Part shown: positions 10,431 through 64,000 of the stretch, piece by piece
Numbering within the stretch: the first letter of the stretch is position 1
How the letters are laid out: each line of letters starts with the position of its first letter
NCBI RefSeq assembly: GCF_020966775.1
Contig: NZ_JAJKFV010000029.1
Span: 613,001 to 677,000, forward strand
Source of the DNA: Rhodopirellula halodulae
Lineage (GTDB): Bacteria; Planctomycetota; Planctomycetia; Pirellulales; Pirellulaceae
Length of the DNA: 64,000 nt
Direction: 5' to 3'
Position numbers and translations under genes: made by a program
The notes under the pieces: model-generated
The model's input: only the letters and a program-made list of their open reading frames with translations
What the model was told of the DNA's origin: nothing
The model's database searches: none

Positions 10431-11648
10431 ATGTCCACTGCGATCCTGCCTTCCACGGCATCCGATGACAAGTCGCTCATCAATTTGGACGCTTTCGCTG
10501 TCCAGCCTCGTCCGTATCAACAGCGAATCATTCAACGTGCATTGGATGCGTTTGGATGTTCCGCCGCGTGTGATGCCGCTTTCGAACCCACCGCCTGCAC
10601 CGAAGCGACGGAGAACGGGGCAGGGCAGGGTGGGCAATCAAAATCGCGTCCGAGTAGCGTTCTGATCGAAAGCCCAACCGGCAGTGGAAAGACGGTGATG
10701 GGATTGGCGGTCGCCGCAATCATGCAACGGACATTGGGAATTCAAGTGGGGTGGGTTGCCATGCGACGCAACCTTTTGATTCAGGCCCAGGCGGAGAATG
10801 CTCGTCGGGAATTCGGCGTCGACATGCGGATGATCAGCATGTTTGACAAGAACCCGCCCAGCGTAAATTTGCTGGTGGTTGATGAAGCTCAGCACGACGC
10901 GGCAACCAGCATGGCGAACCTGCACGGCCAGATCCAACCGCAATGGACGCTCGGCCTTTCCGCGACACCGTATCGTTCCGACCGAATCAAGCTTTGTTTT
11001 GAGAACGTCATTCGGGATGCTGGCATCGCACACTTGATCGCCGACGGTTACCTCAGTCCCTATCACCACTACACGATCGAGGAGTATTCGCCTGAGACAG
11101 TCGCCACGTTGTTGATTGAAGAGCCAGAACGTTGGGGCAAGTCGCTGGTCTTCTTTCACAAGCAAACGCAATGCGATGAGTTGAAGTCGCGATTGGATGC
11201 GGCCGGAATTCGTAGCGATATCGTCACTGCAAAAACGGATCGGGAGCGACAACTGGCCAGGTTTGTCGAAGGTCAAACCGATGTGCTGATCAACATGGCG
11301 ATTTTAACGGAAGGGTTTGATTGTCCTTCATTGAAGACCGTTTTCTGTCGTCCTAGCGGTCAAGGCACCACGATTCAGATGGCCGGGCGAGTGTTGCGTC
11401 AATGTGAATCGGAACCCGTCAAGCAAGTCGTCCAGTGTCGACATACCCGGCATCCAATGATGCGAACCGCGATTCCGGCGGAGCAATACCTTTGGACCGA
11501 ATACGGGTGGCGAAGCATTTCCGGCAATCGCCAATTGGATGCCATGGCGATGGCCGCTCGCCAACGAGTCGCAAAAGCCAACGTGAGTCTGCCGAAGCTG
11601 ATCGCCGCTCACCGACCTCGCCGACGAATGCATCGTTTGACGCGTTGA
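10431..11648 (+). CDS. Superfamily II DEAQ-box helicase
   Basis: 405 residues. It shows an N-terminal Q-like segment (RPYQQRIIQRALDAF, 27-41), Walker A SPTGSGKT (81-88), DEAQ (151-154), SATPYR (177-182), a second RecA lobe with TEGFDCPSL (293-301) and motif VI QMAGRVLR (316-323). It resembles the short restriction-subunit/XPB-like helicases of phages and plasmids. No nuclease domain is visible. A 35-residue insertion between the Q segment and Walker A contains ENGAGQGG (61-68), encoded by the dispersed G-rich repeat. It is followed after 50 bp by a DUF932 gene, a common phage/plasmid pairing, so this pair is probably accessory DNA or a defence-type module. Confidence 0.8.
   Translation: MSTAILPSTASDDKSLINLDAFAVQPRPYQQRIIQRALDAFGCSAACDAAFEPTACTEATENGAGQGGQSKSRPSSVLIESPTGSGKTVMGLAVAAIMQRTLGIQVGWVAMRRNLLIQAQAENARREFGVDMRMISMFDKNPPSVNLLVVDEAQHDAATSMANLHGQIQPQWTLGLSATPYRSDRIKLCFENVIRDAGIAHLIADGYLSPYHHYTIEEYSPETVATLLIEEPERWGKSLVFFHKQTQCDELKSRLDAAGIRSDIVTAKTDRERQLARFVEGQTDVLINMAILTEGFDCPSLKTVFCRPSGQGTTIQMAGRVLRQCESEPVKQVVQCRHTRHPMMRTAIPAEQYLWTEYGWRSISGNRQLDAMAMAARQRVAKANVSLPKLIAAHRPRRRMHRLTR
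10617..10634 (+). repeat. KOPS-type G-rich repeat, plus orientation
   Basis: Two overlapping GGGNAGGG octamers (10618, 10623) inside the helicase gene, read as NGAGQGG. First member of the oriented series. Confidence 0.7.
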
Positions 11649-11698
11649 CTCTTTCTGAATCTTGCTATCGATCACCACCTCATTCAAGGAAGCCAATC

Positions 11699-12823
11699 AT
11701 GTTGACCTCAACCAAGCCACAAAACAATTTCGAAAACTCAACTCGTTTTACCTACGCACTGGCCAGCGTACGCGACATTCGCGTGGGCGAGGTGCATCGT
11801 TCACCGGGAGGCCGGATCAGTTTGAAGGAGCTGGAAATTGATGGGCAGCCGGTGGCTGCAACGCGTCGATTTTGGCGTTCTTTTTTCACTCGCTTTGGAA
11901 TCGCTGAGAACGTCTTCCGCTACTTTCGCCCCGACGAAGTGTTCGCTCGTATCCAATCGCAGCGTGAGGATGTTTCGTTTCGTTACTGCATCGCTCGGTC
12001 CAATTTGGCTGACTCAAAAAGAGCGGATCAACTGTTGGCCATCACGAACCCCAATCGTCCCATCATTCGCTACGACGATATTCGTGGGCTGTTGGATCAA
12101 AACGGTGGACAAGACGTTCGCTATCACAACGGCGTCGTGACCAGTACCCACGCGCCGCGAGGCGGAAGTCGACAATTCGCAATCGGAGGCGACCAGTTTC
12201 GAGATCGATTCTGTTTGGAAACGCCGGTCGACGGATATGGGCATCCTCGATTGTTCCTGTCGATGCTTCGATTGGTGTGTAGCAACGGCATGATTGGACA
12301 CGCCAAGGCGTTTCGAAGCGATGTCCCTGTTGGCAAGAACATGGAACACTGCATCGTGCGGGCGTTGGAGTCGTTTGACAACGGCGATGGCTACGCCGCG
12401 TTGCGGCAGAGGTTTGAATCCAGCCAGACATCTTGGGCGTCCGTGCACGAGTGCTTGCGTTTGAACGAGTTGCTGGAGTCGCTTCGTCGGGACGAGCAGC
12501 TCACTCAAACTGGTTTGGTTGGGCGTTTCCGCTCAATTGCGGGAGATCTGAATGAGCTCTATGGCCTTGCGAACCTGGATGCTCTCAGCGACAAGCGGCG
12601 AAGAATTCTGCCCAGCAAGGCTCGCGTTTACGACCTCATCAATTTTGCTAGCGAGGTGGCAACTCATCATGCGAAAGCCGATGGTGCCAATCGCATTCAA
12701 GCATGGCTTGGCTCGCTGATTTCCGAGGAATTTGACCTGGAAGGCACCGCCAACTCCGGAGCCGACTTCGACGCATTCTTTGTTCCGAGCAATGATGGGT
12801 TGCCAGCACAGAGTCGCAATTGA
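11699..12823 (+). CDS. DUF932 family phage/plasmid-like protein
   Basis: 374 residues from ATG 11699, which has a good ribosome site (CAAGGA). The frame is open upstream to 11435 but overlaps the helicase. It resembles the DUF932 proteins found on phages and plasmids (SRQFAIGGDQFRDRF, then a LRLVCSNGMIG core and a helical C-terminus). Function is unknown; several relatives sit beside helicases or recombination genes. Operon position behind the helicase suggests a joint role in DNA processing. Confidence 0.7.
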   Translation: MLTSTKPQNNFENSTRFTYALASVRDIRVGEVHRSPGGRISLKELEIDGQPVAATRRFWRSFFTRFGIAENVFRYFRPDEVFARIQSQREDVSFRYCIARSNLADSKRADQLLAITNPNRPIIRYDDIRGLLDQNGGQDVRYHNGVVTSTHAPRGGSRQFAIGGDQFRDRFCLETPVDGYGHPRLFLSMLRLVCSNGMIGHAKAFRSDVPVGKNMEHCIVRALESFDNGDGYAALRQRFESSQTSWASVHECLRLNELLESLRRDEQLTQTGLVGRFRSIAGDLNELYGLANLDALSDKRRRILPSKARVYDLINFASEVATHHAKADGANRIQAWLGSLISEEFDLEGTANSGADFDAFFVPSNDGLPAQSRN

Positions 12824-12947: not shown

Positions 12948-15710
12948 GTGACGAGATTAGCGAACACCAGTCAGTTCGGCCAAATCTCGGAGTCTGCAGG
13001 TGTGGCTGCGCACCATTGCTTATCGGAGGCTCCTGTCAATGTGCGTGTGATTCGGACGCTTGGGAAGGGCAGAGCTGCCACGGCTGAGCTCGTCGAGGCA
13101 ACTTGGGAAGACGGAAAAAGCCGTCGTTTGGTTGAAAAGGTTTTTGCCCCCGGCCTGCTGACTCGCTGTATCTATCGCTTGGCCTTTGCCGCTCCATTTG
13201 CTTACCAATCGAATCGCCACGCGATATTGGCCTGTTTCTACCGCCGAAGCGTGGTGTCGCGGATGCTTGAAGCATCCGCCCTTTGCGATGAACGCGAAAG
13301 TTTGGTCGATGTTGCGCTTCCGGAATACGTCCGCTACGATCGCAAGCGGGATGCCTACGTTCTCGCCGCGAGTTTTGTCGAAGGTCGTGGTCCAATCCCA
13401 GCCTGCGTCCACTCAAACCCGATGGCTGCGGAAAACGAGATGTCCGGCCTAGTCGCCGAAATGAAACGAGTTGAGCGACAACTGATTGAATTCGGGTTGG
13501 TTGGCTCTGGTTGGCAGGTGGCGCCCGGGGCCATGGTGTCGACCGCAAATCTGCTTCTTTCGGATCGGTCAGGTTTGCGTGTTGTTCATCCAGATGAGCC
13601 GGAAAACGTTTCGGCGAGAAGTCTCCGCTACACGATCATCGACTTGGAATCTGGGATACCGGCTGTTTTGCTCTGGCGGTATGTGTGGCAAAGCTGGCGC
13701 CGAGGGGCTGTCTTTCCGTTCGATGATCTAGATTCGCGGAAACTTCGAGCTTCCTGTGCCGAGTTGTGTGCCCGACTTATTTGCAGAGGTGAGCGAAGTC
13801 TGGCAGAAAAACTGTCGGCGGATGTGGAGTGTTTACTGGCTGCGGATGAGCAATGGAAAGCAGGAGAAATCGCCGCGTTTCGACGACCATGGACTTGGTT
13901 GTCCGCTCAACGACGAACTTGCTATCGTCGAACTTGCATTGATCGATGGCAGCAGCAACGCGTGGTCGATCCAGAAAACGCAGCGGCCTTGCTTACAAGC
14001 CGATGGTTCTTCGTCTTCTTATGGCTGCTGGGTCTGTGCCCACCCAGTGCGATAGGCCGATGGCTTCAGGCCTGCTTTGCAAATCGCTCTCATCAGGAAC
14101 GGGTTCGTCAATTCGCGACGAACAGTCGTGTTCGCGCCGCGTTCTTGGTGAAATACCGTCGCCAGCAGTGGAAAACACTGTGTGAACAGCAGCGATGTTC
14201 CAATCGAAGTGGACCTGCTTCGAGTTGGGGGCTAGTTGGGCATCGTTTGCTTCGTTATTCAACCACTGCGGGTCTGCACCGCTATTTAACCGATCCGAAA
14301 CGACGTGCACGCCGAAATGCTCAAATGCGGGCGTTGGTTTGCCGCGGGAGCTATCAAATCGCATTTGGTCGCAAGGTGTTCCGGGCGACGACCCAACGCT
14401 GGCAATCTCGCAATTGGTTGACGGAACGAGAAGCAACGAACCTGAATAACCAGTTCAGCGGACCTCAACTAGCTGTTTACTCACGTGGTTTGGGGATGCA
14501 TGTTGCGATCAAGTTCCTCTACCCTCTGATCACTCCGTTGAAGCTGGGGGGACTCACGATGGCATTGGCCGGCCGCAGTGTCTGGTTTGCCGTGTTGCCA
14601 ATCATGATCCTGCCTGCAGCGAGAACACTGGTCACACTCTTCAGTTTGCTAGCAAATCGGTCTCATGGTGTTCCGCATCGACATGCAATCTTGGTGGGAG
14701 CGATCCCGATGGTTGGTTCGGCGGCGTTCATCGTTCAAATGTGGACCGCGAACCCTGTAGTCTCAAAATTTCTGTTGCGAGACTTTGCTTCTCGGTTTGC
14801 AAGGAAGATTCCCGTTTACGGTGGCCCCGACTCACGCACCGAACATGCCGTGCTCGCCATTGGTGAACGATTGCTTCAATTGTTCGCCGCATTCCATTCA
14901 GCCTCGAAAGAAGTAGCAGCATCAATGTCACCAAAGAATGACACACGCGATGTTCAAAGGCCCGTCGTCAAAAAGCAGTTGCAATCGATGCGTTGGCCAT
15001 ACCCCAACGTGCTACGAGATTCGTTGTTGTTGACCGGAGTGTGCTGCGGCGCACTGTTGGCGGCAGGAAGCTTGATGACGGATTCGCTTCCCGCTCAATG
15101 GCTAACCGGCGAAAACGGTGCTCTTGAATCCACCCAATTGGTGGTCTTGGTCTGCACGGCGATTGCCGGTTGCTGGTCGTTGCTTCGTGTAAAAACATCG
15201 AGTTGGAAAAGTATCGCCGTCGCCTTGGTTTGCGTTGCGGTTGCGGCGGCGGCCCGGGAAGTTCCATCTGCGGTGAGTCAAGCATCCCTCACCAATGGTG
15301 CCCGTCAAACGGCAGAGCAAACCGGCTTCGCGATTTCTGGAACTTGGAAGCACACGGTCATCGCCGTTGCCGTTTGCATTTGGCTGTCGCGTGTTGCTTA
15401 CGCCTGGGTGAAATTTCCTGAAGATCGCAAATTGTGGTTCTCGCCGGCGTTCGTTTGGCCCGCGATTCCTTTCGCGACCTGTTTCGTTCTTGCAGAGCTA
15501 TTCGAGCGACTGAAGTGGGTGGCAGCGGAGGAAACCGTTGAGGTGTGGGGCTACACCATGATGATGGCTGTCGCAATTTGGATGATCCGAAACGCCAATG
15601 TTCTTCAGGCACGTTCCTTTCAAGAAACGGATCGGGAACCTCTGCCTGCCAACTTGCGAGTTGTGAGCAACATGGATTGTCCCGATCAACATACGGAGCG
15701 AGCTGCATAG
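12948..15710 (+). CDS. Large membrane protein with kinase-like N-terminus
   Basis: 920 residues from a GTG start. The first 330 residues recall lipopolysaccharide-kinase or protein-kinase folds: LGKGRAATAELVEA (glycine-rich strand), VEKVF (possible lysine strand), YTIIDLES (a possible metal-binding D). A clear HRD loop is missing. The rest is very rich in arginine and tryptophan, then has hydrophobic segments near 520-600 and six more from about 690 to 890. The last block (ENGALESTQ, then VAAEETVEVWGY) recalls a membrane family with paired acidic motifs. A glycosyltransferase gene follows, so a role in surface glycan or lipid modification is plausible. Kinase activity is not established. Confidence 0.55.
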   Translation: MTRLANTSQFGQISESAGVAAHHCLSEAPVNVRVIRTLGKGRAATAELVEATWEDGKSRRLVEKVFAPGLLTRCIYRLAFAAPFAYQSNRHAILACFYRRSVVSRMLEASALCDERESLVDVALPEYVRYDRKRDAYVLAASFVEGRGPIPACVHSNPMAAENEMSGLVAEMKRVERQLIEFGLVGSGWQVAPGAMVSTANLLLSDRSGLRVVHPDEPENVSARSLRYTIIDLESGIPAVLLWRYVWQSWRRGAVFPFDDLDSRKLRASCAELCARLICRGERSLAEKLSADVECLLAADEQWKAGEIAAFRRPWTWLSAQRRTCYRRTCIDRWQQQRVVDPENAAALLTSRWFFVFLWLLGLCPPSAIGRWLQACFANRSHQERVRQFATNSRVRAAFLVKYRRQQWKTLCEQQRCSNRSGPASSWGLVGHRLLRYSTTAGLHRYLTDPKRRARRNAQMRALVCRGSYQIAFGRKVFRATTQRWQSRNWLTEREATNLNNQFSGPQLAVYSRGLGMHVAIKFLYPLITPLKLGGLTMALAGRSVWFAVLPIMILPAARTLVTLFSLLANRSHGVPHRHAILVGAIPMVGSAAFIVQMWTANPVVSKFLLRDFASRFARKIPVYGGPDSRTEHAVLAIGERLLQLFAAFHSASKEVAASMSPKNDTRDVQRPVVKKQLQSMRWPYPNVLRDSLLLTGVCCGALLAAGSLMTDSLPAQWLTGENGALESTQLVVLVCTAIAGCWSLLRVKTSSWKSIAVALVCVAVAAAAREVPSAVSQASLTNGARQTAEQTGFAISGTWKHTVIAVAVCIWLSRVAYAWVKFPEDRKLWFSPAFVWPAIPFATCFVLAELFERLKWVAAEETVEVWGYTMMMAVAIWMIRNANVLQARSFQETDREPLPANLRVVSNMDCPDQHTERAA

Positions 15711-20315: not shown

Positions 20316-23300
20316 TCAGGACTTGCGACGTTTCATGTGAGGCAACCGGCGTCCCTGAGTTTGGGCCGTGGTGAGCTGCGTTTGCAAATCGTCCAGCGTC
20401 AGGGGGCTGACCGGAATGGTCATCAATTCCTGCGGGTCGATTTCGCTGATCAAATTTTGCTTGCCAATTTTTTCGACTTCGTCCTCCAGGGCACTGAGCC
20501 ACGGCGGGAGATCCAGTCCGACACCGACGGGAGTCCGAGAAAGCTCACTGGCTTGAGCTTCCAACTGGTCGAATGCGGTGCTCTGTCGGTTGGCCTCGGC
20601 GTCGTTCATGGCGGGTTCAACCAAGGAACGCATTCGGTCGATGGTCATTGGCTGAACAAAGCGTTCTTCGATGCGATCCGCGATGGTTGGCATTCGCATC
20701 GAATGACGACGTTGAAGTTCGCGAAGCTTTTGAACGTACAACTCCGCTTCGGCGGCGATGCGTTCATTCAAACTTTCACGCCAAGCCAGCGAAGCTTTGT
20801 CGAGTCCCAGTCTCACCAGGACCTCATGAGTCCACATGATGGGTTTGAGGTTCCAAGCCACGCGTTCGTAGCGGGTGCGGAGACGTAAAAAGTCCAGGAA
20901 GGTATAGATCAATTCACCACGATCACTTTGGGTCGTGGTGCTGTTGTAATCCTGGTACTCCGCGTGGTGATCCAGCAATGATTCAAACACCAACGTGATC
21001 CAACGCGACGCTTCGGCGATCTTGATCTTGCCGATTTCTAGATCTCGGAAGAGTTGCGTGTCTTCCAACAGGTCGTCGCCATCGGTCATGGCTCGTTCCA
21101 GCCACGAGGAAACGTCTTGGTGCAAGACGGCTCGAACATTGCTCAGTTGCAGGAAACCCTGCGTGAAGATTGGGTCGCCGTACAGCTGGATGAACTCCAC
21201 CAAACGTTCCCACTTGGCCGGATCACTGACGGCTTCCAAGGGCGAAAGACGTAGCGTTTGGCTGTGTGCCAACCAACTGCCCAGCATTGTTTCCGTCAAT
21301 CGTTCCAGTAACGGGATCAAGCGGTCCGCAATGGCGTCTTGATCGGTCACGCTGAGTTCACGCGAAACCGTTGAGGGATCGACCGGGGCAGGGGAGGGCG
21401 GTTCACCGGCAGTCGAGTGCAGGACGGCCTGGGCGATGGAGCTGACCAGTGATCGATATCCCGCTCGGTACAGGCCGTCGAATTCCGTGACGGCTCCAGC
21501 ACCTATGGGGTGCCGTTGTTCCATTTGTCGTGCGGTTTCGATCAGTCGACAGGTTTCGGCGAACAGGCCGCGGCGAGGCAACCAGTGCAACAAGTGACGC
21601 AGCACTCGTTCTCGCAGACGTGTGACATAGATCTTGACCGGGTCGCCACCGCGAGAAAGCGGGATGTAGAGCAGACTGCGGTTTAGGATTGCGTCGATGA
21701 ATGTGGGGAAGCGTTCGCGGGCTCGATCCGAATCGCCAGCGATCAACGACGAGAACAACTCGATGGCCCCCGCGTCATCTTCGGCGAATTCTTCACCGAC
21801 GTCCCCTGGCAGCTTTCCTTGCATTGCACCGAGTGCACTGGCGATCAAGCGCCGAGCGTCGGCCATTTCAACCGCCGTCGTAATCACCCGCTCCATCAAA
21901 CTGTCACGCAGGACCCGGCGGCGATCGTAGATCCGCATGGAATCTTTGTCTGTGCCGGCGGGCTTGATCTTGTAGGAACGCACATCGCTGAGCAGCTCCA
22001 GCAATCCAATGCGGTTGGCGACCGCGCGCCGTGCCCAAGCGGACAGGGCTTCAATTTGTTGCTGACGGTGGCTGGGAGCAAACTCGGGTGACGATGGCGG
22101 TGTTTCCTGGTTGGCATGAATTTCCGTCAACGCGACGTCGGCGCCGACGGCCCACATGCGTGCCAGTGATTGCAGGAAATCCAAACGGCATGCCAGTCGT
22201 TTCACTTCCGCTTCCAATTCATCGACGCTGCTGCTGTTGCTGCTCGTGTCGAAGATGGAGCCTTCATTGCCATCGTCGGTTGTGTCGCGGTAGCTGACGT
22301 TTTCATACGCCGCGTCGAACAAGCCTTCGTCTTCGTCCTCAGGCTGGTCAAAGGGATTTTCGTTGGCGTTCGCCAATTCTTGTTCCCATTCATCGCGAGG
22401 TCGCGACGGTGATTCATCGTCACCACATTCAAAACGTGGGGCGGACCAAAACGATTCAGCGTTGGCTTCTAAGTAGTCAAAGAACTTGTTGACGCGTGGC
22501 CACAGAGCCGCCGCGTCGTCACGCATGTGGGCTCGCAGTTGAAGCAACCACCGTTCGGCCAAACGCGGCAGCGAATTTGCACCGCTACGAAGTCCGACTC
22601 GGTCGGCTTGCCCCAACCAGTGAATCAGCAAGGCCTGCGCTGGGATGAAATCCTTTCGTTCCAGCAATGCCGAGATGACCAGCATGTAGGCTCGCGGTGA
22701 ATCGAACAGATCGGCGTGCGGTGCCCAAAAAGCGATGTCGCCGCGTTGGGCGCCGCCGCGGTGCCAAAGCCGGAGAGCTTGCGCGACCAAACGTGCTGAT
22801 TCGTAGGATTCCCAGGGATCGGTGGCTTCGACCGATTCTACGGTGTGGGCCGCGAAAGTTCGCCACCACTGGGCGATATCGCGGTATTGACGATCCATCC
22901 GCTCGTAGGACGCTTCGTCGTCGCGTGCGGCGGCTTCGCTCCACACGCGAGCGATGTAGCCAAACAAGTTCTCGATGATGTACAGCAGCTCGTCGAGTCG
23001 GCTGTCATGGATCGAGTTTTCGATTCCCGGATACAAGCTGAAGTTGCCCGTGAACCCGAGGATATCCCAAGGGTCCATTAACGCACCGCATTCAATGGCG
23101 CGACGGATCAGGTCGAAGGTTTGCTCGGGCACTTCCACCGAATCCGCGAATCGATCGGTGCGGAGGGCGCGAAGTCCCAACGTCATGCCGCAATCGATGC
23201 GGCACATCAAACGGGCGGAGGCGGCGGGAACCACGTCGGCTTGTTTGGTCGCGGAATCGGGGTAGCCAAGTCTTGCGTAGATCCGTGCAAGTTGAACATG

Positions 23301-26896: not shown

Positions 26897-28489
26897 TCAC
26901 TCCCATTCGATCGTCGCGGGCGGTTTGCTGCTGATGTCGTAGCAGACTCGGTTCACGCCTTTGACTTCGTTGATGATTCGGGTGCTGATCCGAGCCAGCA
27001 GTTCGTAAGGCAGGTGGCTCCAATCCGCCGTCATGAAGTCGTCGGTGTTGACGCATCGAACGGCAATTGCGTTGTCGTAGGTTCGGGCATCGCCCATCAC
27101 ACCAACGCTTTGCACGGGCAACAGCACGGCAAAGGCTTGGCTGGTGTCGCGGTACAAACCGGCGTTTTCGATCTCTTCGACCACGATTGCGTCGGCTTCA
27201 CGAAGCACTTTCAATTTGTCTCGCGTGACTTCGCCTAAGCAACGCACCGCCAAGCCGGGACCGGGGAAGGGGTGTCGCCAAACCAATTGTTCCGGCAGAC
27301 CCAGTTCGATGCCCAACCGACGAACTTCGTCTTTGAATAAGTCTCGCAGAGGTTCGATTAATTCAAACCCCAATTCTTCCGGAAGCCCACCGACATTGTG
27401 GTGCAGTTTAATGGTGGCGGCGGGGCCGTCTTTGTCAGCACCGCTTTCGATCACATCGGGATAAAGCGTGCCTTGGGCAAGGAAGTGTGCGTCCTCGATT
27501 TTGTTGGCTTCATCTTTGAAGCATTCGATGAACGCGTGTCCGATGCGTCGTCGTTTCTCTTGTGGTTCGTCGATCCCGGCCAAGTCCGCCAAGAAGCGAT
27601 CTTCGGCTTGAACGATGTGCAAGTCGGTTTGGAAGTGGTTGCTGAACTCTTCCAAAACGATTTGTTGTTCGTTCTTACGAAGCAACCCGTTGTCGACCAG
27701 GATGCAAGACAACTGAGGCCCGATGGCTTTGTAGAGCAGTGCGGCGACGACAGAAGAATCCACGCCGCCGGACAGGCCGCAGATGACTCGTTTGTTGCCG
27801 ACTTGCTGACGAATGGATTCGATCGCGGCGTTGGCGAAGTCACCCAGTTTCCAACTGCCGTCGCATCCGCAGACGTCGATCACAAAGTTGCGAAGGATCT
27901 GTCCACCGTGCGGCGTGTGTGTGACTTCGGGGTGGAACTGCATGCCAAACACCGGACGTTCGTTGTGACGAATCGCGGCGTAAGGGCAGGTGGACGTCTT
28001 GGCCATTGCGGTGAACTGATCGGCAATCTGCGAGACCTGGTCACCGTGGCTCATCCAAACTTGTTCGGAATCTTGCATCCCGCGAAAGATCGAATCGCGA
28101 TCCGTGAATTCGCACATCGCTCGGCCGTATTCGCGGCTGGGCGTGTTGTCGACTTTGCCGCCGAGGGCTTGGCAGGCGAGCTGCATGCCGTAGCAAATCC
28201 CAAGCACGGGGATGCCGAGATCAAACAGACCCTCGTCGCACTTCGGCGCGCCTTCTTCGTAAACGCTGTTGGGACCGCCGGAAAGGATGATGCCTTTGGG
28301 TGCCAGTTCGGCGATGCGTTCCGCCGTGATGTCGTGGCGAACAATCTGGCAGTAGACGTTCTGTTCGCGGACGCGGCGAGCGATCAGTTGAGCGTACTGC
28401 GATCCAAAATCGAGCACCAAGATGCGTTGATCGGTGAGCCAGGTTTTTTCAGCGATGGCGGACGAGGTGGTGTTCTCGGGAGAGGTCAT
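26897..28489 (-). CDS. guaA: GMP synthase (glutamine-hydrolysing)
   Basis: 530 residues from ATG 28489. It converts XMP to GMP. The N-terminal class I amidotransferase has the nucleophile cysteine in GICYGMQL and histidine/glutamate in QFHPEVTHT. The ATP pyrophosphatase domain starts with [10 protein letters not shown], and the C-terminal dimerisation domain ends [16 protein letters not shown] further 114 open codons upstream belong to the divergent promoter region. The G-rich repeat octamer at 27264 lies within the conserved HPFPGPG codons, so that one may be coding-driven. Confidence 0.97.
27264..27271 (+). repeat. KOPS octamer, plus orientation
   Basis: GGGAAGGG inside the conserved HPFPGPG codons of guaA. 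Coding constraint may explain it, but polarity agrees with the series. Confidence 0.45.
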
Positions 28490-28674: not shown

Positions 28675-28695
28675 GGGGAGGGCAGGGCGGTTCAG
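28675..28695 (+). repeat. KOPS-type G-rich repeat, plus orientation
   Basis: GGGGAGGG (28675) and GGGCAGGG (28680) overlap and continue CGGTTCAG. It lies in the divergent guaA/cytochrome gene promoter region. Confidence 0.7.
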
Positions 28696-45960: not shown

Positions 45961-45975
45961 GCAGGGCAGGGCGGC
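45961..45975 (+). repeat. KOPS-type G-rich repeat, plus orientation
   Basis: GGGCAGGG at 45964, flanked by GCA and CGGCG. Intergenic. Confidence 0.65.
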
Positions 45976-46116: not shown

Positions 46117-46127
46117 GGGGCAGGGCT
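46117..46127 (+). repeat. KOPS-type G-rich repeat, plus orientation
   Basis: GGGGCAGGGCT with the octamer at 46118. Intergenic. Confidence 0.6.
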
Positions 46128-51714: not shown

Positions 51715-53036
51715 TGCATATCCGAACCTTCCGAGCAGCGAATCTGCAAGCGGCGCTTGCCGACATCCGAGAACAAATGGGCCCGGACGCCTCCGTGCTT
51801 CATACGCGACAGGTGCGTAACGGCTGGATGGGATGGTTGGGACGCACGCATGTGGAAGTCACCGCCGGTCTGCACGGCACGTCCGCCGCTGGTTCGTCCT
51901 CGACGGATGCCGCTGCGTCGCCGGCCAATCACGACATGGAGTCGCACGGTCCGGCCGATGTACGATCCATCGCAACAGGAACCGCCGCCGCAGCGTACGG
52001 TGCGAATTCAGGAACACCCAGTGGTTCGGCCTATCAAACTGTGAACTTGGGCGGGCAACATTCGCCATCACCGATGCATCACGATGGGGCAGGGCAGGGC
52101 GGTCGAATGGGATCGGCCTATGGCAATGCCGAGATGACTCCCGCGGAAGCACTGCAACTGCGATTGCTTCAGTCGGGGGTGGAAGAGAACACCGCACGAC
52201 GTTGGATCGCGTCCGCATCCAGCTTTGCCGCCGGGATCGCACAAACTGATTCCGGGCCTCAAAACGATTTGCGTTGGCTGGAACACCTGCAGCGTGCGGT
52301 GGCTCGTGAATTGAATTTATGTGGACCCATTCGCACGCAACCCGGCGACCGCCATGTGGTCGCGCTCGTTGGGCCGACTGGCGTGGGGAAAACAACCACG
52401 GTCGCGAAACTTGCGGCTGGTTTCCGTATCGAAGCCCGACGTCGAGTGGGGCTGCTGACGATCGATACCTATCGCATTGCCGCGGTGCAACAACTGAAGG
52501 CATATGCCGAAATCATGGATCTGCCCATGCAGGTCGTTGAAAAACCCGAACAGATGGAGTCGGCGCTCACCGCTTTGGGCGACGTCGATTTGGTGTTGAT
52601 CGATACTGCAGGACGAAGTCCCCGCAGCGACGCTCGCATCGAACAACTCACTGAGTTTCTGAGGGCGGCTCATCCGGACGAAACGCACTTGGTTTTGAGT
52701 GCGACCAGTTCGGGCGAGAATATCCGCACAACGCTCGAAGGCTTTGCGCCGGTGCGAGCCAACGCGGTCACGTTGACCAAGCTTGATGAGACGCCATGCA
52801 CCGCGCCCGTGTTGGCGGCGCTGACGAGCAGTTCTTTGTCGGCTGGACAACGCATCGTGGCGCCGCCGCTGAGCTATCTGACCAATGGACAACAGGTCCC
52901 CGATGACATCGCCGTCGCCGATGCGGCTGGCTTGGTGGCACAGTTGTTGCCGCACGTGCCGACCACCGGGATGGAAGCGATGGGTTACGAGACAATGGAA
53001 GGGTACGAATCATTGCACTACGGCGAGGCGGCTTAA
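51714..53036 (+). CDS. flhF: Flagellar SRP-family GTPase FlhF
   Basis: 440 residues. The N-terminal B domain (MHIRTFRAANLQAALADIRE), a low-complexity linker (about 55-130), and the NG GTPase domain with VGPTGVGKTTTVAKLA, DTYRIAAVQQLK, IDTAGRS and TKLDET. FlhF places flagella at a pole. The linker contains DGAGQGGR from the G-rich repeat. Downstream, the usual flhG is not present. Confidence 0.95.
   Translation: MHIRTFRAANLQAALADIREQMGPDASVLHTRQVRNGWMGWLGRTHVEVTAGLHGTSAAGSSSTDAAASPANHDMESHGPADVRSIATGTAAAAYGANSGTPSGSAYQTVNLGGQHSPSPMHHDGAGQGGRMGSAYGNAEMTPAEALQLRLLQSGVEENTARRWIASASSFAAGIAQTDSGPQNDLRWLEHLQRAVARELNLCGPIRTQPGDRHVVALVGPTGVGKTTTVAKLAAGFRIEARRRVGLLTIDTYRIAAVQQLKAYAEIMDLPMQVVEKPEQMESALTALGDVDLVLIDTAGRSPRSDARIEQLTEFLRAAHPDETHLVLSATSSGENIRTTLEGFAPVRANAVTLTKLDETPCTAPVLAALTSSSLSAGQRIVAPPLSYLTNGQQVPDDIAVADAAGLVAQLLPHVPTTGMEAMGYETMEGYESLHYGEAA
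52086..52104 (+). repeat. KOPS-type G-rich repeat, plus orientation
   Basis: Two GGGCAGGG octamers (52087, 52092) then CGGTCGA, inside flhF linker codons (DGAGQGGR). Confidence 0.7.
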
Positions 53037-54438: not shown

Positions 54439-55671
54439 ATGCGTATCGCCCATGTGATCACCCGAATGATCATTGGCGGCGCGCAAGAAAACACGTTGCA
54501 TAATTGCCAAGACCTCGTTCACCTGCATGGGGACGAGGTCTTGCTCATTACCGGGCCAGCCGTTGGACCGGAGGGAGACTTGTTGCGGGATCGCACGCCG
54601 GTTGCCGCTGCGGACACAGGTCCCCGGGGTAGGGCAGGGCGGTTCGATCTGGACGGTCTGCCGATTCAGTTGATTGATTCCCTGAGACGCAACATTCATC
54701 CAGTCCACGACTGGAAAGCAGCTCGCGAATTGCGGCGGGTTTTGCATGAGTTGGATCCGGATGTGGTTCACACCCACAGTGCCAAGGGTGGCTTGCTCGG
54801 TCGGTATGTTGGCTGGGGCCTGAAACGTCGGACGACCGGCAAACGACCGGTGGTTGTGCACACGGTTCATGGCGCTCCTTTCCACGATTATCAATCCAAA
54901 TCGGCTCACGACTTCTTCGTTCGCTGCGAACGCTGGGCCGCCGCTCGCTGCCACAAATTGATCTCCGTTGCCGATGCGATGACAGATCTGATGGTCGACG
55001 CCGGCGTTACACATCGCGATAAGTTTGTGACCATTCACAGCGGGATGAATGTCGATCCGTTTGTCCATGCGACGGACCATCGCGAACGAATTCGCACCCA
55101 GTTTGGTTTGCGAGAGGAACATGTTGTGGTCGGGAAGGTGGCTCGCCTTTTTCATTTAAAAGGTCATGCCGACTTGATCGCTGCCGCGAAGCAGGTCGCG
55201 GACTCGCATCCAAACGTTCGTTTTCTGCTGGTTGGCGATGGTATCCTCCGAGAGGAATTGCAGCAGCAAATCGCGACGCTGGGTTTGCAGGAGCATTTCA
55301 TTTTCGCGGGTCTGGTGCCGCCATCCGAAGTTCCCGCCATGATCGGAGCGATGGACGTGCTCGTTCATGCGTCTTATCGCGAAGGATTGGCACGAGCGCT
55401 TCCGCAAGCCTTGATCGCGGGACGACCAGCAATCAGCTACGACATCGACGGCGCCCGCGAAGTGGTGATCGACGACGAGACGGGTTACTTAGTCGGGGCA
55501 GGGCAGATTGGTCCGCTGGCGGATCGGATCGGTCGATTGGTCGGGGACTCGGAACTTCGGCATCGAATGGGAGCCGAGGGACATCGACGCTTCACCGATT
55601 TGTTCCGGCACCAAACCATGACTCAGCGGATTCGTGATCTGTATCAGGAACTCTGCGACCAGCACGGCTGA
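54439..55671 (+). CDS. Family 4 glycosyltransferase
   Basis: 410 residues of the GT-B fold. N-terminal MRIAHVITRMIIGGAQENTL, PDVVHTHSAKGGLLGRYVG, and the nucleotide-binding KVARLFHLKGHADLI. The usual EX7E motif near the C-terminal substrate site (REGLARALPQALIAG) has glutamine for the second glutamate. It is seven bases downstream of fliA, and could glycosylate flagellin or surface glycan. Two stretches derive from G-rich repeats (54626, 55495). Confidence 0.85.
   Translation: MRIAHVITRMIIGGAQENTLHNCQDLVHLHGDEVLLITGPAVGPEGDLLRDRTPVAAADTGPRGRAGRFDLDGLPIQLIDSLRRNIHPVHDWKAARELRRVLHELDPDVVHTHSAKGGLLGRYVGWGLKRRTTGKRPVVVHTVHGAPFHDYQSKSAHDFFVRCERWAAARCHKLISVADAMTDLMVDAGVTHRDKFVTIHSGMNVDPFVHATDHRERIRTQFGLREEHVVVGKVARLFHLKGHADLIAAAKQVADSHPNVRFLLVGDGILREELQQQIATLGLQEHFIFAGLVPPSEVPAMIGAMDVLVHASYREGLARALPQALIAGRPAISYDIDGAREVVIDDETGYLVGAGQIGPLADRIGRLVGDSELRHRMGAEGHRRFTDLFRHQTMTQRIRDLYQELCDQHG
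54626..54646 (+). repeat. KOPS-type G-rich repeat, plus orientation
   Basis: GGGTAGGG (54627) and GGGCAGGG (54632) then CGGTTCGA. Inside the glycosyltransferase gene, read in another phase as RGRAGRF. Confidence 0.7.
55495..55503 (+). repeat. KOPS octamer, plus orientation
   Basis: GGGGCAGGG inside the glycosyltransferase gene (VGAGQI). The 3' flank of the long repeat is not present. Confidence 0.55.
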
Positions 55672-55730: not shown

Positions 55731-55749
55731 AGCAGGGCAGGGTGTTCCG
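55731..55749 (+). repeat. KOPS-type G-rich repeat, plus orientation
   Basis: GGGCAGGG at 55735 then GTGTTCCG. Intergenic between the glycosyltransferase and kinase genes. Confidence 0.6.
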
Positions 55750-56858: not shown

Positions 56859-56861
56859 GCG

Positions 56862-57821
56862 ATGGCTGGCCCCGGATTGGAATTTGAAAACGAAATCGCG
56901 GACCTGGAAGAGCAAATTGCGTCGCTCGAACGGAACACCGATCGAAGCGAAGAAATTGACTCAGCGATTCGTTCGTTGCGATTGGCTCGTGTTGCCAAAC
57001 TGAAAGAAACGTACGCATCGTTGGATCCTTGGCAAACGGTCCAAGTGGCTCGTCATAAGAATCGTCCTTACACGCGCGATTACCTCAATTTGGCGTTTGA
57101 CGAATTCGTCGAGTTGCACGGTGACAAGCATTTTGGCGACGACCGAGCGATGCTGACGGGCTTTGCAAAACTGGATCGTTTCAAAGTCATGGTGATCGGT
57201 CACCAAAAAGGAAGGACTTACAAGGAACGTGCGGCTTGTCACTTTGGTTGCGCTCATCCGGAAGGTTACCGCAAGGCCATGGTGAAAATGAAAATGGCCG
57301 AGAAATATCGCTTGCCGGTCATTTGTTTCATTGACACGCCCGGAGCGTATCCTGGGATCGGGGCCGAAGAGCGCGGGCAGGCTCAGGTGATCGCCGAGAG
57401 CATGTTCATGATGAGTGATCTGAAAACGCCGGTCATCTGCGTCGTGATCGGCGAAGGCGGATCCGGCGGCGCCCTCGGAATCGGAGTTGGCGACCGTGTG
57501 GCCGTTTTGCAGCACGCGTACTACAGCGTCATCAGTCCGGAAGGCTGTGCGGGAATTCTTTGGAAGAGCCACGAACACGCACCCAAAGCCGCCGCCGCGT
57601 TGCGGTTCACCAGCGATCATTTGAAGCGACTCGGCGTAGTCGATGACGTGCTCGAAGAACCGCTCGGCGGAGCCCATCGTGACCATCACCAAATGGCTTC
57701 GCGGATGAAGACTTATCTGTCGCGACAGTTGTCAGAGTTGGAAGACATTCCGACCGATCAATTGCTCCAGCAACGCTACGAGAAGTTCCGTCGCATCGGC
57801 GTGTTCTTGGAAGAGAACTGA
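56862..57821 (+). CDS. accA: Acetyl-CoA carboxylase carboxyltransferase subunit alpha
   Basis: 319 residues. It transfers the carboxyl group from biotin to acetyl-CoA in the first step of fatty acid synthesis, with AccD. The pattern is FENEIADLEEQIASLE, then GYRKAMVKMKMAEKYRLPVI, FIDTPGAYPG and GEGGSGGALGIGVGD. accD is not in the window. It begins three bases after the kinase gene. The putative dif site lies 88 bp past its stop. Confidence 0.97.
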   Translation: MAGPGLEFENEIADLEEQIASLERNTDRSEEIDSAIRSLRLARVAKLKETYASLDPWQTVQVARHKNRPYTRDYLNLAFDEFVELHGDKHFGDDRAMLTGFAKLDRFKVMVIGHQKGRTYKERAACHFGCAHPEGYRKAMVKMKMAEKYRLPVICFIDTPGAYPGIGAEERGQAQVIAESMFMMSDLKTPVICVVIGEGGSGGALGIGVGDRVAVLQHAYYSVISPEGCAGILWKSHEHAPKAAAALRFTSDHLKRLGVVDDVLEEPLGGAHRDHHQMASRMKTYLSRQLSELEDIPTDQLLQQRYEKFRRIGVFLEEN

Positions 57822-57908: not shown

Positions 57909-57936
57909 ACGTCCGATAATGCCTCTTATGTTGTAT
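57909..57936 (+). other. Putative dif site (XerC/XerD recombination)
   Basis: 28 bp in the accA-cvpA gap. XerC-like arm ACGTCCGATAA (57909-57919), six-base centre TGCCTC (57920-57925), XerD-like arm TTATGTTGTAT (57926-57936). The XerD-like arm matches 9 of 11 positions of the E. coli arm TTATGTTAAAT, and the XerC-like arm matches 8 of 11 of the B. subtilis arm ACTTCCTAGAA, as I recall those. The inner ATAA...TTAT symmetry is kept. It lies about 1.1 kb from where the KOPS polarity reverses, which is the place expected for dif. The gap (57822-58081) holds no gene. Confidence 0.55.
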
Positions 57937-58081: not shown

Positions 58082-58900
58082 CTAACGTCGCGGTGGTGCC
58101 CATTGCGGCGTCGCGGATTGTTGCCAATTCGGCGCCGACTGACGTGAGTTCACGGGCGTGGATGGCGGCTGCGTTGCGGTGCCAAAACGGTTAAATGTTT
58201 GAGGCGATGTTGAGCCGCCAAAGCCGTTCGCCGGCGCACCGTTTTGGATGCCGTTTGGGGTGAAATTGGCTGTCTGATTTTGCATCGCCTCGCTGGCGAA
58301 TTCGGCCGGCGTTTGGGCGGATGGATTCGCCCAGCCTGATTCAGGTTGCTGGTTTGGCGAGTGGCTCGAAAACCACGAGTTCGCTGCGCCGGATTCGTCC
58401 TCGCTGAATTGATCCAAATACGGTCTCACCACGCCGTGAAGCTCAGGCGGCATGATCGAATCGGATTCGTCCAGCACGCGAGCGATCAGCCGTCCGCTTT
58501 CGCTGGCCACGATGGCTTGCTGTGTTCGCTCGCCAAATAGAGTCATCGCGAACAGCGTGATCACGGTGCACAGCAACGCGCCTTTGGCGAGGCCGAACAA
58601 GGCTCCGATCTGGCGGTCGAATTCTTTGAGTCGCATGCGGTCGATCATTCCACTGACCATGCGGAGTGCGACCCAGATCACGAACGACGTGCCGACGAAC
58701 AGGATGAACATCGCCAGAAACTGGTTCCATGGCGGCGCGGCATGAATGTTCTGGCTGAACGGTTCACGGTAGCGATAAGCGACTGTGTAGCTGACAACGA
58801 TGGAAGCGATGGAAGCGAGTTGCCATGCAAATCCACGGATCGCGCCTAGCAGGGTGGCGCCGACCAAAATGATCGTCATCAGGATGTCGTAAGTCTGCAT
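58082..58900 (-). CDS. CvpA family membrane protein
   Basis: 272 residues from ATG 58900. Four membrane segments (MTIILVGATLLGAIRGFAW, ASIVVSYTVAY, FLAMFILFVGTSFVIWVALRM, ALLCTVITLFAMTLFG) match the CvpA fold. The C-terminal 110 residues are asparagine/proline/glutamine-rich and disordered (SSHSPNQQPESGW then NGIQNGAPANGFGG). CvpA proteins are linked to membrane homeostasis and colicin V production in other bacteria. Confidence 0.75.
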   Translation of the reverse strand: MQTYDILMTIILVGATLLGAIRGFAWQLASIASIVVSYTVAYRYREPFSQNIHAAPPWNQFLAMFILFVGTSFVIWVALRMVSGMIDRMRLKEFDRQIGALFGLAKGALLCTVITLFAMTLFGERTQQAIVASESGRLIARVLDESDSIMPPELHGVVRPYLDQFSEDESGAANSWFSSHSPNQQPESGWANPSAQTPAEFASEAMQNQTANFTPNGIQNGAPANGFGGSTSPQTFNRFGTATQPPSTPVNSRQSAPNWQQSATPQWAPPRR

Positions 58901-58960
58901 GGGCGCACTTCTATCGCCGGAACGGGTCAACACCGTTGTGCCGCTTCTAGCAAATTTGGA

Positions 58961-58974
58961 GGGGCAGGGCGAAC
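58961..58974 (+). repeat. KOPS-type repeat, last plus-oriented copy
   Basis: GGGCAGGG at 58962. About 1 kb past the putative dif site and the last copy pointing right. Confidence 0.65.
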
Positions 58975-59104
58975 AGCAATTTTTTGCGACACGGTGTTGC
59001 GGTTTGGCGAGCGGCGCCGTCTCGGTCTCGATTCTTGCTGTCTACTGAATTTTTCCGCTGGTCGGCGCGGACGCGGATTTGGTATCGCCAATGGTTCTCG
59101 GTGC

Positions 59105-59125
59105 GCAACCGCCCTGCTCCGCCCC
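59105..59125 (-). repeat. Near-match G-rich repeat, minus orientation
   Basis: On the minus strand: GGGGCGGAGCAGGG then CGGTTGC. The octamer has one mismatch (GAGCAGGG). First copy with reversed orientation, 130 bp after the last plus copy. Confidence 0.5.
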
Positions 59126-59198
59126 GGCGTCTCATGGGCGGCGGCAGAGAGATGTTGTTGACCTTATCCGTTCGATCCCATTTATCCGTCGCGTTCCT

Positions 59199-60179
59199 TT
59201 GGCTGGCTTCAAGACCCATATCTCGACGAGCACCGTGGTTGGGTGCGCCTACGGATATTGGGGCGTGGTCGATCAAGGCATGTCGATGGAGAGCTCGCTG
59301 CTGGCCGGTGGTTTGTGCAGCGTGTCGGGAATGTTGCCTGATTTGGACAGCGATTCCGGGGTTCCGCTTCGCGAAACGAGCATGTTTCTCTCCGCAATCG
59401 CGCCGATGCTAATGATCGACCGATGGCGTGACATGGGTTTGTCGCACGAAGCGATGGCATTGGCGGCCATGATCGTCTACGTCGCGATTCGGTTTGTCGC
59501 CGTGGAGGGTTTCCGTAAATTCACGGTCCACCGCGGGATGTGGCACAGCATCCCTGCGGCGTTGGTGGCCGCCTTGATTGCATACATGTTGATGCCCTGC
59601 CCCAGCGAAGCGATCCGAGTTTACAAATCGGGCGCCGTTCTGGTCGGCTTCATGACGCACCTGATTCTGGACGAGATTTGGGCGTTGGATTTCAGTCGTG
59701 GGTCATTGCGACTGAAGAAGTCATTCGGGACGGCGCTTAAATTCTTTGGCAGCAGTCCGCTGGCGAACTTCTTTGTCTACGGACAACTCGCGTTGTTCAT
59801 CTATTTGGCTTGGGGAGATCACGAGATCTTGGATCGTTTGCGACAACGCGTGCGAATGGACCGAGACCGCTACGCATCGCCGGGCGACTACGACGGTTCG
59901 TTGGACAACTTCAGTCCAGCGATCTATCCGCCATGGGAATCGCGTGAGCCACCAAAATGGGAGGCACCCCAGCAACCGGCCGCCGTTCCGGCTTGGCCGA
60001 ACCAGCCTGCGCATCAGCAATTCCCAAACGGCCAGCCTGCTAACGGGCAACCGGGAAATCTACAGCCGGGCTATCAGCAACCCAACTATCAGCAGCCGGC
60101 CTATGGCCAACAGTTCAATCCGGCTGGTCATGAACGGGTCGCCGGACCAACCGGCTCCCCTGCCCTGCCCCAACGCTGA
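59199..60179 (+). CDS. Membrane-bound metal-dependent hydrolase (YdjM/DUF457-like)
   Basis: 326 residues from TTG 59199, chosen because family members begin MAGFKTHIS-like; earlier starts at 59079-59091 are open but pass through the G-rich repeat. The pattern is LAGFKTHISTSTVVG at the start, then PDLDSDSG and VHRGMWHSIP, which carry the metal ligands, and several membrane segments. A long proline/glutamine-rich tail ends SPALPQR, encoded by a minus-oriented repeat. Function is unknown; relatives are LexA-regulated membrane hydrolases. Confidence 0.65.
   Translation: MAGFKTHISTSTVVGCAYGYWGVVDQGMSMESSLLAGGLCSVSGMLPDLDSDSGVPLRETSMFLSAIAPMLMIDRWRDMGLSHEAMALAAMIVYVAIRFVAVEGFRKFTVHRGMWHSIPAALVAALIAYMLMPCPSEAIRVYKSGAVLVGFMTHLILDEIWALDFSRGSLRLKKSFGTALKFFGSSPLANFFVYGQLALFIYLAWGDHEILDRLRQRVRMDRDRYASPGDYDGSLDNFSPAIYPPWESREPPKWEAPQQPAAVPAWPNQPAHQQFPNGQPANGQPGNLQPGYQQPNYQQPAYGQQFNPAGHERVAGPTGSPALPQR
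59595..59602 (-). repeat. KOPS octamer, minus orientation
   Basis: GGGCAGGG on the minus strand, inside the hydrolase gene (MPCPSE). Confidence 0.55.
60155..60171 (-). repeat. KOPS-type repeat, minus orientation
   Basis: Two octamers on the minus strand (60158, 60163), encoding the end of the hydrolase (SPALPQ). Confidence 0.7.
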
Positions 60180-60846: not shown

Positions 60847-61770
60847 ATGACGTTTCTGTTCACTTGCCCACACTGCCAATCCCAAACCGAGGTGGAAGAC
60901 CAGTACAGCGGCCGGACCGGCGATTGTGCCGTGTGTGGTCGCGAGATCACGCTGCCTGATTTTGCGTTTTCGAGGCGAAAGGCCGTGCCAAATGCGGCCA
61001 GAAAGAAATCGGTCGTCCGATACGTCGCGGCGGGGTTGGCTTTGTTGGTGATTGGTGCGGGTTTGGTGGCGGCGATTCAGATCGGCGGTCAGACCGCCAG
61101 CAAAATTCGCGTGGGTCGGCAGCGGCTCAGCAGTATCAAGAACCTCGAAAAGATCGCTTCGGCCCTGAATGCCTACGCGTCCGATCATGGAGCCTACCCT
61201 GCCCCATACACAACCGATCGTTCGGGGCGTCGTCTGCATTCGTGGCGAGTCGCCATCCTTCCGTACTTGGGCGAAGAAGGTCTCTACAACCGAATCGACA
61301 AGGACGTTGCCTGGAACGAAGGTGACAACGAACAGCTGATGTGGAGCGAGATGCCCGCCGTGTTTCGCCACCCCGAACTTCAAGGTTGGGGTGTGGGGAC
61401 GGTTTACCAATTGGTCACCGGGACCGGGACTCTGTTTCCCGCCACCGGGCCTTTGGGTCCAGCTTCAGCGACCGACGGTGCGACCAAAACCATTTTGGTG
61501 GTCGAAGGTGCGATGGACGGCATGACGGATTCTTGGATGGAGCCCTATGACGTGGACATCCAACAGATCGGCGGAGCGATCAATGGACCGTCCGGCAAAG
61601 GATTGGGTGGCGCGACAGAAGGCGGTGTTTGCGTGGCGACGGTGGATGGCAGAGGCTATTTTTTGCCCGACACCACACCGCCGTTGACGGTCCAAGCGTT
61701 GCTCACACCTCGGGGTGGCGAACCTTTGTCCGACGATGTGCTCGATGAATGGGCCTCGAGCGGTCAGTAG
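60847..61770 (+). CDS. DUF1559-like pseudopilin protein with zinc ribbon
   Basis: 307 residues from ATG 60847 with AAAGGA upstream. An N-terminal zinc ribbon (CPHCQ then CAVCGRE) is followed by a membrane segment ([22 protein letters not shown]) and a DUF1559-type region: [41 protein letters not shown]. This family is greatly expanded in planctomycetes. The usual prepilin cleavage site is replaced by the zinc ribbon, so the N-terminus faces the cytoplasm. The substrate or partner is unknown. Confidence 0.8.
61197..61204 (-). repeat. KOPS octamer, minus orientation
   Basis: GGGCAGGG on the minus strand, inside the DUF1559 gene (YPAPY). Confidence 0.5.
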
Positions 61771-62128: not shown

Positions 62129-62157
62129 AAAAAAACGGCGAGGTGGAACCTCGCCGT
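62129..62157 (-). terminator. Intrinsic terminator of argG
   Basis: On the minus strand, a perfect 10-bp stem ACGGCGAGGT / ACCTCGCCGT with a 3-nt loop, followed by a run of Ts (62129-62135). It lies 30 bp past the argG stop. Confidence 0.92.
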
Positions 62158-62186
62158 GAAATGCTGTCAATCATCGCCAACCGCAA

Positions 62187-63401: not shown

Positions 63402-63524
63402 CTCAGATCTGCATCCAAATGCGGGGGAATCGGCTATGTTTGAAGGTCTCGCATTTAAGTTGTCCGGTGCGAAACACGCAAGGACGGTCAGAAGGATCCT
63501 GGCCGGAAAGTCAAGCAGAACGCT

Positions 63525-64000
63525 ATGAACGAACCCTCCAATCAACCGCCCTCCCCTGCCCTGCTTCAGATTCTTGAGGACCTGGCATCGGGGAAGACAG
63601 ATGTCAGTGCGGCTGCCGAATCCATCCAGTCGGGCTCGCCGGAGTCGTGGGCCGAAATGCAGGTGGTTCCTGGGGCCACCGTTGATCTTGGACGCTCGTC
63701 ACGATGCGGCTTTGGCGAAGTGATCTACGGTGAGGGCAAATCCACTGAGCTGATGATTCAAATTGTCCAGACTCAAATCGCCGCCGGCCAGGGCTGTCTG
63801 ATCACGCGAATCGACTCGACCGCGGCGGCTCAGATTCGTCGAGTCTTCAGCAACACCCGGTACAATTCATCCGCCCGAACGCTCCGGATCGGCTGTGGCG
63901 ATGAGAGTTTGGAACCGATCGGCGCCGAGGGGCACTCCACGCATGTGGCGGTGGTGACCGCCGGAAGCACCGACGCCGCCGTCGCCGACGAGGCGGCGGA
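63525..64000 (+). CDS. larB: Nickel pincer cofactor biosynthesis protein LarB (N-terminal part)
   Basis: 158 codons are visible before the window ends. LarB carboxylates and hydrolyses nicotinic acid adenine dinucleotide to make the pincer cofactor of lactate racemase-type enzymes. Motifs VDLGRSSRCGFGEVIYGEGKS and VAVVTAGSTDAAVADEAA match the family. The N-terminal QPPSPALLQ is encoded by a minus-oriented G-rich repeat and lies before the conserved region. larA, larC and larE would have to be elsewhere or just outside. Confidence 0.9.
   Translation, partial: MNEPSNQPPSPALLQILEDLASGKTDVSAAAESIQSGSPESWAEMQVVPGATVDLGRSSRCGFGEVIYGEGKSTELMIQIVQTQIAAGQGCLITRIDSTAAAQIRRVFSNTRYNSSARTLRIGCGDESLEPIGAEGHSTHVAVVTAGSTDAAVADEAA
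63544..63566 (-). repeat. KOPS-type repeat, minus orientation
   Basis: Two octamers on the minus strand (63549 and 63554) within the larB N-terminus, read as PPSPALL. Confidence 0.7.

Follow-up and report, generated by a model that had tools for sequence, protein, structure and literature searches.

We describe here a 64,000-nucleotide stretch of the planctomycete Rhodopirellula halodulae (the window; positions 613001-677000 of contig C29 in a draft genome, G000, of 6,608,739 bases in 33 contigs), which carries a candidate dif site flanked by octamers resembling the FtsK orienting polar sequences (KOPS) of Escherichia coli. The dif site occupies 28 bp at 57909..57936 on the + strand (C29:670909). 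Two 11-bp arms, ACGTCCGATAA (57909-57919, +) and TTATGTTGTAT (57926-57936, +), surround the 6-bp centre TGCCTC (57920-57925, +), with an inner palindrome ATAA-TTAT; we call the arms XerC-type and XerD-type, respectively, by their resemblance to known dif sites. Two genes converge on the gap that holds the site: accA on the left, for the alpha subunit of acetyl-CoA carboxylase carboxyltransferase (56862..57821, +; PF03255, E-value 3.9e-136), and on the right a gene for a cvpA-like membrane protein (58082..58933, -; PF02674, E-value 4.2e-28). Beyond the latter is a gene for a YdjM-like membrane protein (59079..60179, +; PF04307, E-value 9.3e-11; start codon uncertain), which is conserved and served as the neighbour by which the locus was found in relatives. 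We scored both strands of the 1.264 Mb of contiguous, gapless C29 sequence analysed around the window against a dif consensus, with position forming no part of the score. The single best match starts at window position 57909, with 14 of 18 scored positions; 13 others, scattered along the sequence, score 13.

We counted the KOPS pattern as GGGNAGGG, of which GGGCAGGG is the commonest form. The pattern occurs 25 times in the window, first in 19 copies on the + strand (10618 to 58962) and then in six on the - strand (59595 to 63554), an order without exception. Dinucleotide shuffles of the window yield 5.5 +/- 2.4 copies, and none of 100 shuffles reached 25. Overlapping pairs account for ten of the + sites (five pairs, at 10618, 21386, 28675, 52087 and 54627) and for four of the - sites (two pairs, at 60158 and 63549), which leaves 18 independent places once pairs are merged. 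On the left, all on the + strand and pointing to dif, are the pair GGGCAGGGCAGGG at 10618..10630, GGGAAGGG at 13062..13069, the pair GGGCAGGGGAGGG at 21386..21398, GGGAAGGG at 27264..27271, the pair GGGGAGGGCAGGG at 28675..28687, GGGGAGGG at 30491..30498, GGGCAGGG at 34644..34651, 45964..45971 and 46118..46125, the pairs GGGCAGGGCAGGG at 52087..52099 and GGGTAGGGCAGGG at 54627..54639, and GGGCAGGG at 55496..55503 and 55735..55742, the last being the nearest copy left of dif (2.19 kb). On the right, the nearest correctly oriented copy is GGGCAGGG at 59595..59602 on the - strand (1.67 kb from dif), followed on that strand by the pair GGGCAGGGCAGGG at 60158..60170, GGGCAGGG at 61197..61204 and the pair GGGCAGGGGAGGG at 63549..63561 (pairs as read on the - strand). 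A preliminary description of the window had listed 24 of these positions, all of them exact; its single omission, GGGAAGGG at 13062 (+), has the expected polarity. It had placed the point of convergence at 59.0-59.6 kb. The octamers do converge, but on dif, at 57.91-57.94 kb, so that one copy, GGGCAGGG at 58962..58969 (+) upstream of cvpA, falls on the wrong side, 1.04 kb right of dif and pointing away. This copy is the reason why the earlier centre lay 1 kb too far to the right.

Is the octamer exceptional beyond the window? The 1.264 Mb of C29 contain 129 copies of GGGNAGGG, 85 of them GGGCAGGG. Within 300 kb of dif, 71/74 copies of GGGCAGGG and 93/99 of GGGNAGGG are oriented toward it. Counted in 40-kb bins, almost every copy of the motif between 273 and 672 kb is on +, and almost every copy between 673 and 990 kb on -; past that point copies are few and of both orientations. 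Copies of GGGCAGGG aimed at dif number 26 per 100 kb in the nearest 50 kb and under 1 per 100 kb beyond 400 kb. Among all octamers with 20 or more copies less than 300 kb from the switch point (n = 24,326), GGGCAGGG ranked first for polarity toward the switch (z 8.1), with 72 of 74 copies pointing to a centre at 672.5 kb. Ranks 2-7 are overlaps of GGGCAGGG, and the top unrelated word reaches z 3.9. As the preliminary description had stated, gene strand does not explain the polarity: 45 of the 74 copies within 300 kb lie inside long open reading frames, 27 on the gene strand and 18 against it, and orientation tracks position relative to dif. The gene-strand preference near dif is itself weak (+ genes, 148/270 on the left and 167/341 on the right), and samples from two congeners (G002 and G004, see below) disagree. 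A genome-wide count had also been proposed, with a lack of strand bias as grounds for refutation. This test is partly triggered: over the whole genome, with its arbitrarily oriented contigs, there is no strand bias (205 forward versus 176 reverse). The 381 copies of GGGNAGGG are fewer than those of the pattern read backwards (563, i.e., 311 and 252), which is no enrichment, and among the 100 places listed of the 381, all on contigs C1 to C10, orientation is mixed. KOPS enrichment and polarity in this genome are regional.

The dif site is conserved. With one centre base varying, the 28 bp recur in the corresponding position in 12 of 13 loci of the genus, and in the other locus (G006) the core is cut by the locus start. 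Outside the genus, five of seven loci (L102, L104, L105, L107 and L108) carry dif, in this or a variant form, close to the YdjM-like gene. We then took the dif core as CGTCCGATAATN5TTATGTT (18 letters, exact matches only). It is present in 125 of 147 genomes of the order, among them all 13 of the genus, with one copy in R. halodulae; 123 of the 125 have a single copy, and G120 and G128 have two copies on two contigs. The pattern read backwards is found in none of the 147 genomes, and the chance expectation is about 2e-4 per genome. Scanning a named collection for the core gave at least 119 stretches, 92 of 119 being Planctomycetota by title, Phycisphaerae included.

The first 80 of the 119 listed loci form an independent set chosen by dif alone. 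In the 61 of them titled Planctomycetota, 124/135 copies of GGGCAGGG point toward dif (42 loci mostly toward, none mostly away, 19 undecided), and GGGCAGGG ranks first of 24,047 octamers for pointing to dif. Over all 119 listed loci the figure is 186/206 (67 loci toward, one away, 51 undecided). The 19 loci with other titles hold just six copies, three of them toward dif; these loci therefore support the octamer rule within the phylum only. We also note two unusual arrangements of the core. Two planctomycete contigs carry two inverted dif cores whose starts are 83 bp (L204, 2031-2136) and 73 bp (L235, 4966-5061) apart. In one metagenome bin (JAITIZ01), a core is present on each of four contigs (L207, L212, L240 and L249), which suggests that the bin is mixed or that mobile DNA carries copies of dif.

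Three complete chromosomes of relatives were examined, two from the same genus (G002, 7,291,416 bp; G004, 7,145,576 bp) and one more distant, from the same family (G018, 7,250,512 bp). Among the first 100 of 117 places of GGGCAGGGC in G004, 29/29 are + at 3.21-4.4354 Mb and 46/46 are - at 4.4365-6.32 Mb. Relative to dif at 4.43755 Mb, 74 of the 75 between 3.2 and 6.3 Mb point to it, the exception (4,436,532) being the counterpart of the wrong-side copy; below 3.2 Mb, the 25 places in the list show both orientations. Over the whole G002 chromosome, 42/44 copies of GGGGCAGGGC fit a dif at 2.00866 Mb plus an opposite point (exceptions: the wrong-side copy and 3,746,038). Its two KOPS arms come together at dif, and the point from which they diverge falls between 4.98 and 6.02 Mb, where dnaA also lies. 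In G018, GGGCAGGGC is + at 19 and - at two places from 0.17 Mb to dif (0.5978 Mb), then - at 40/40 to 2.25 Mb; 59/61 between 0.17 and 2.25 Mb are thus toward dif, and the remaining 34 of 95 are mixed.

The distance between the longer dnaA-like gene, which scores below the curated cut-off in every genome, and the point opposite dif is 7.4 kb in G002, 25.2 kb in G004 and 1,093 kb in G018; the offset in the two congeners is 0.2-0.7% of the replichore. Two DnaA-box-like sites are found near the start of the dnaA-like gene opposite dif. In both congeners, KOPS orientation agrees with the dnaA-dif axis; it disagrees with GC skew. A second DnaA-like gene is present in all four genomes (G002:81977, G004:6246574, G018:94 and G000:C2:9933), matching the profile from 111-167 to 436-437 of 437. 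As an origin marker, parS is informative at most for G018: with up to one mismatch, no site was found in G000 or G002, G004 has one site with one mismatch at 3.857 Mb, away from dnaA, and G018 has two perfect palindromes (4572155-4574924), 0.35 Mb from the point opposite dif.

The proteins expected to act on such a site are encoded in the genome, as a search suggested by the preliminary description confirmed. A single 953-amino-acid open frame on contig C11 has the FtsK_4TM (PF13491) and gamma (PF09397) domains, and also matches PF17854 (FtsK_alpha) and the motor PF01580. PF17854, named alpha by Pfam, is called the gamma domain in a published account of an FtsK said to lack it. Its gamma domain aligns with solved gamma domains (2j5o/2ve8/2j5p), the recognition stretch being IGYGRAARLIDYM versus IGYNRAARMIEAM in 2j5o. 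XerC (C29:1.82 Mb) scores 358 bits against an NCBIfam cut-off of 335.15, and XerD (C29:1.68 Mb) 369 bits against 329.6; the XerC protein also narrowly exceeds the XerD cut-off (331.8). Together with the conserved dif in the window, these genes support the earlier suggestion that the octamers point, as KOPS do, toward dif.

The octamer switch itself, at 58.97-59.11 kb, was also searched for a dif site. An alignment of 13 genus members reveals conserved promoter-like blocks there, and no dif by eye. The genus-conserved blocks at 58935-59120, upstream of cvpA and the YdjM-like gene (TAGCA..., GGGCG.A.AGCAA; CGACCGCCCTGCTC in most), look like divergent promoters. An Rfam search of the window gave no matches. 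Elsewhere in the window, ARAGORN predicts a tRNA-Ile with anticodon TAT at 53833-53910.

We consider it very probable that this locus is the chromosome dimer-resolution site of a Rhodopirellula-type planctomycete, working through an FtsK-KOPS-XerCD-dif system, and the window probably holds the single site where chromosome copies are separated at the last step. At the level of sequence, the analysis establishes the motif, its polarity and decay, dif with its single copy and conservation, and the domains of FtsK, XerC and XerD. The way in which these parts would work is suggested by homology. XerC and XerD would bind the 28 bp at 57909-57936. The copies of GGGCAGGG, which are concentrated in the nearest 50 kb or so and keep their polarity out to 300-400 kb on either side, would be read by the gamma domain of membrane-anchored FtsK and so load it in a single orientation; the translocase would then pump the last DNA toward dif from both sides, bring two dif copies together and switch on XerD. 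In these hosts the system would presumably be used at the bud neck.

Several observations weigh against this picture. In 22 of the order's 147 genomes, including the one-contig G023, there is no exact match to the dif core. G002 and G004 both have a counterpart of the wrong-side GGGCAGGG at 58962 (+) in the corresponding position. The block around this copy, upstream of cvpA, is conserved in 13/13 genus members, with GGGGCAGGGC in six and an altered form in seven; this copy is probably a promoter-region element that resembles KOPS and is unlikely to act as one. Three residues of the IGYNRAARMIEAM stretch, N, R and E, are KOPS contacts of the E. coli gamma domain. The protein here has G, R and D in their place, so that one residue differs (N to G) and another is nearly equivalent (E to D). 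These changes may be linked to the octamer's preferred C at its variable base. Finally, GC skew is positive in 32/32 contiguous 40-kb bins and in 20/20 samples (20 kb) of the 2.5-Mb C29, and third-position skew, computed for + and - genes apart (GC and AT parts), does not flip at dif. That last result rules out a GC-skew flip masked by gene orientation: the strand part of third positions is positive in 32/32 bins and in 18/20 samples (one is -0.002 and one not computable). The preliminary description had expected a GC-skew extremum near the switch and had named one far from it as grounds for refutation. Instead, the skew keeps one sign through dif in all the C29 stretches read.

The asymmetry in question is strong. 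Throughout the stretches read of C29 1-2516066, the window included, it is independent of genes and of one sign, with the + strand rich in G and T. Within 550 kb of dif, tetramer asymmetry (z) has a constant part with a standard deviation of 10.6 and a flipping part of 1.9; for octamers the values are 1.65 and 1.04, and the four strongest flippers are GGGCAGGG and its overlaps. In samples spaced about 0.35 Mb, corrected skew in G002 is positive at 1.15-4.3 Mb, negative at 5.0-5.7 Mb and near zero past dnaA (5.66 Mb), and in G004 it is negative at 2.2-5.25 Mb and positive at 5.6-6.8 Mb, with mixed values elsewhere in both; no sign change was found at dif in the samples of either chromosome. The G018 samples at 0.3, 0.8 and 1.3 Mb, flanking dif, share one sign. 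Across the 61 loci, with about 4 kb on each side, mean skew does not differ between left (+0.013, 49 loci) and right (-0.001, 42 loci). We treat a GC-skew shift as a correlate of dif, not as its defining property.

Could the octamer polarity be a by-product of leading-strand G-richness, the switch simply marking the terminus? KOPS are indeed G-rich, and a few short words flip weakly at dif (GGGG with z 6.1, against a constant part of 25.9, and GTGG with z 5.3). Right of dif, however, the motif is G-rich on the G-poor strand, and the constant asymmetry dwarfs the flipping part; this explanation is refuted in this genome, and we give it almost no credence. Nor does it seem credible that the motif represents some dispersed element, regulatory or G-quadruplex, that clusters here by chance. 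In favour of such an element, 29/74 copies lie outside long open reading frames; as these frames cover 79% of the region, that is roughly double what would be expected. Quadruplexes could form from the tandem G-runs, and one copy sits in the conserved block upstream of cvpA. Yet orientation tracks the side of dif and not the gene strand, and the same polarity is seen in loci picked by dif alone. An origin of replication at the convergence point, to which DnaA-box-like words seen by eye near 59.18 kb might lead one, is likewise extremely improbable, given dnaA-like genes on other contigs (with one opposite dif in two congeners), the lack of an origin-type change in skew and the presence of dif.

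A more serious alternative is that dif and KOPS are genuine, and the forks meet elsewhere, one fork crossing the region in a single direction. The one-sign GC skew of C29, the constant asymmetry within 550 kb of dif and the shared sign of the G018 samples on both sides of dif all speak for it, as does a 2026 marker-frequency study that reports replicons with dif not at the lowest coverage (PMC13342612). Against it are the closeness of the dnaA-like gene in two congeners (7 kb and 25 kb) to the point opposite dif and the divergence of the G002 arms in the stretch holding dnaA, although in G018 the dnaA-like gene is 1.09 Mb off. We regard this alternative as a real possibility, short of even. 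The same evidence divides the earlier proposal of a replication terminus: the position of the dnaA-like gene in the two congeners favours it, but there is no sign change of skew at dif and G018 does not conform. The mismatch with skew means that the forks do not meet at dif, or that the asymmetry is not replicational, or that old rearrangements have left the two out of register; a recent move of dif is disfavoured because its neighbourhood is conserved across families. It is tempting to speculate, rather tentatively and with the balance against it, that the segregation axis (dif and KOPS) is independent of the axis of strand asymmetry, with FtsK guidance tied to dif and not to the meeting of forks.

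How does the dimer-resolution system proposed here compare with known ones? Planctomycetes of this group bud and are not known to have FtsZ. The SpoIIIE recognition sequences (SRS) of Bacillus subtilis differ in sequence (GAGAAGGG); like the SRS of SpoIIIE/SftA, the element here is a polar octamer, presumably read by a gamma domain. Architecture imparting sequences (AIMS) increase towards the terminus. AIMS are also 8-bp strand-biased words (PMC5993296), and unlike them the octamer does not follow GC skew; the text of that paper has no word beginning with "planctomycet". The closest counterpart is the E. coli FtsK/KOPS (GGGNAGGG)/XerCD-dif system. Shared with it are the octamer class, the convergence, the rise in density to dif and a reach of some hundred kb, KOPS action in E. 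coli being confined to 350 kb around dif (PMC5357621). Both systems also have XerC and XerD, an FtsK that combines 4TM, motor and gamma domains, and an 11-6-11 dif with a TTATGTT arm. R. halodulae differs in its preference for C at the variable base (85/129 copies are GGGCAGGG in the 1.264 Mb), in that no enrichment or polarity was found far from dif, in the lack of a GC-skew flip, in the XerC-type arm ACGTCCGATAA and in being a budding host. The dif survey of Kono et al. 2011 reports that prediction failed in Planctomycetes; the dif sites that it predicts in other phyla are 28 bp long, with an inner palindrome and one copy per chromosome, and are located at GC-skew shift points (PMC3025954). 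The site here shares the first three properties and the XerD-type arm, and is not at a skew shift. In Gemmata, FtsK was reported to be labelled in the riboplasm as well as in the nuclear body, without being restricted to the bud neck (PMC3954628). The portions of text returned by a search of open-licence literature contain no report of KOPS or dif in planctomycetes.

The FtsK-KOPS-XerCD-dif system is thus a known one, of which this locus is a well-supported new member; its dif and KOPS, for which the open-licence literature searched gave no earlier description in the phylum, are uncoupled from strand skew. If the two axes are indeed independent, then the strong strand asymmetry has a source other than replication, or else dif is regularly crossed by one fork, and FtsK-driven movement of DNA into the bud, not the direction of replication, would set KOPS polarity. 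The lack of a skew flip at a well-defined dif makes GC skew questionable as a terminus locator in this group. These findings provide a concrete dif and KOPS for a phylum of budding bacteria in which a broad dif survey had failed, and with both sequences named, the role of FtsK on DNA during budding becomes directly testable.

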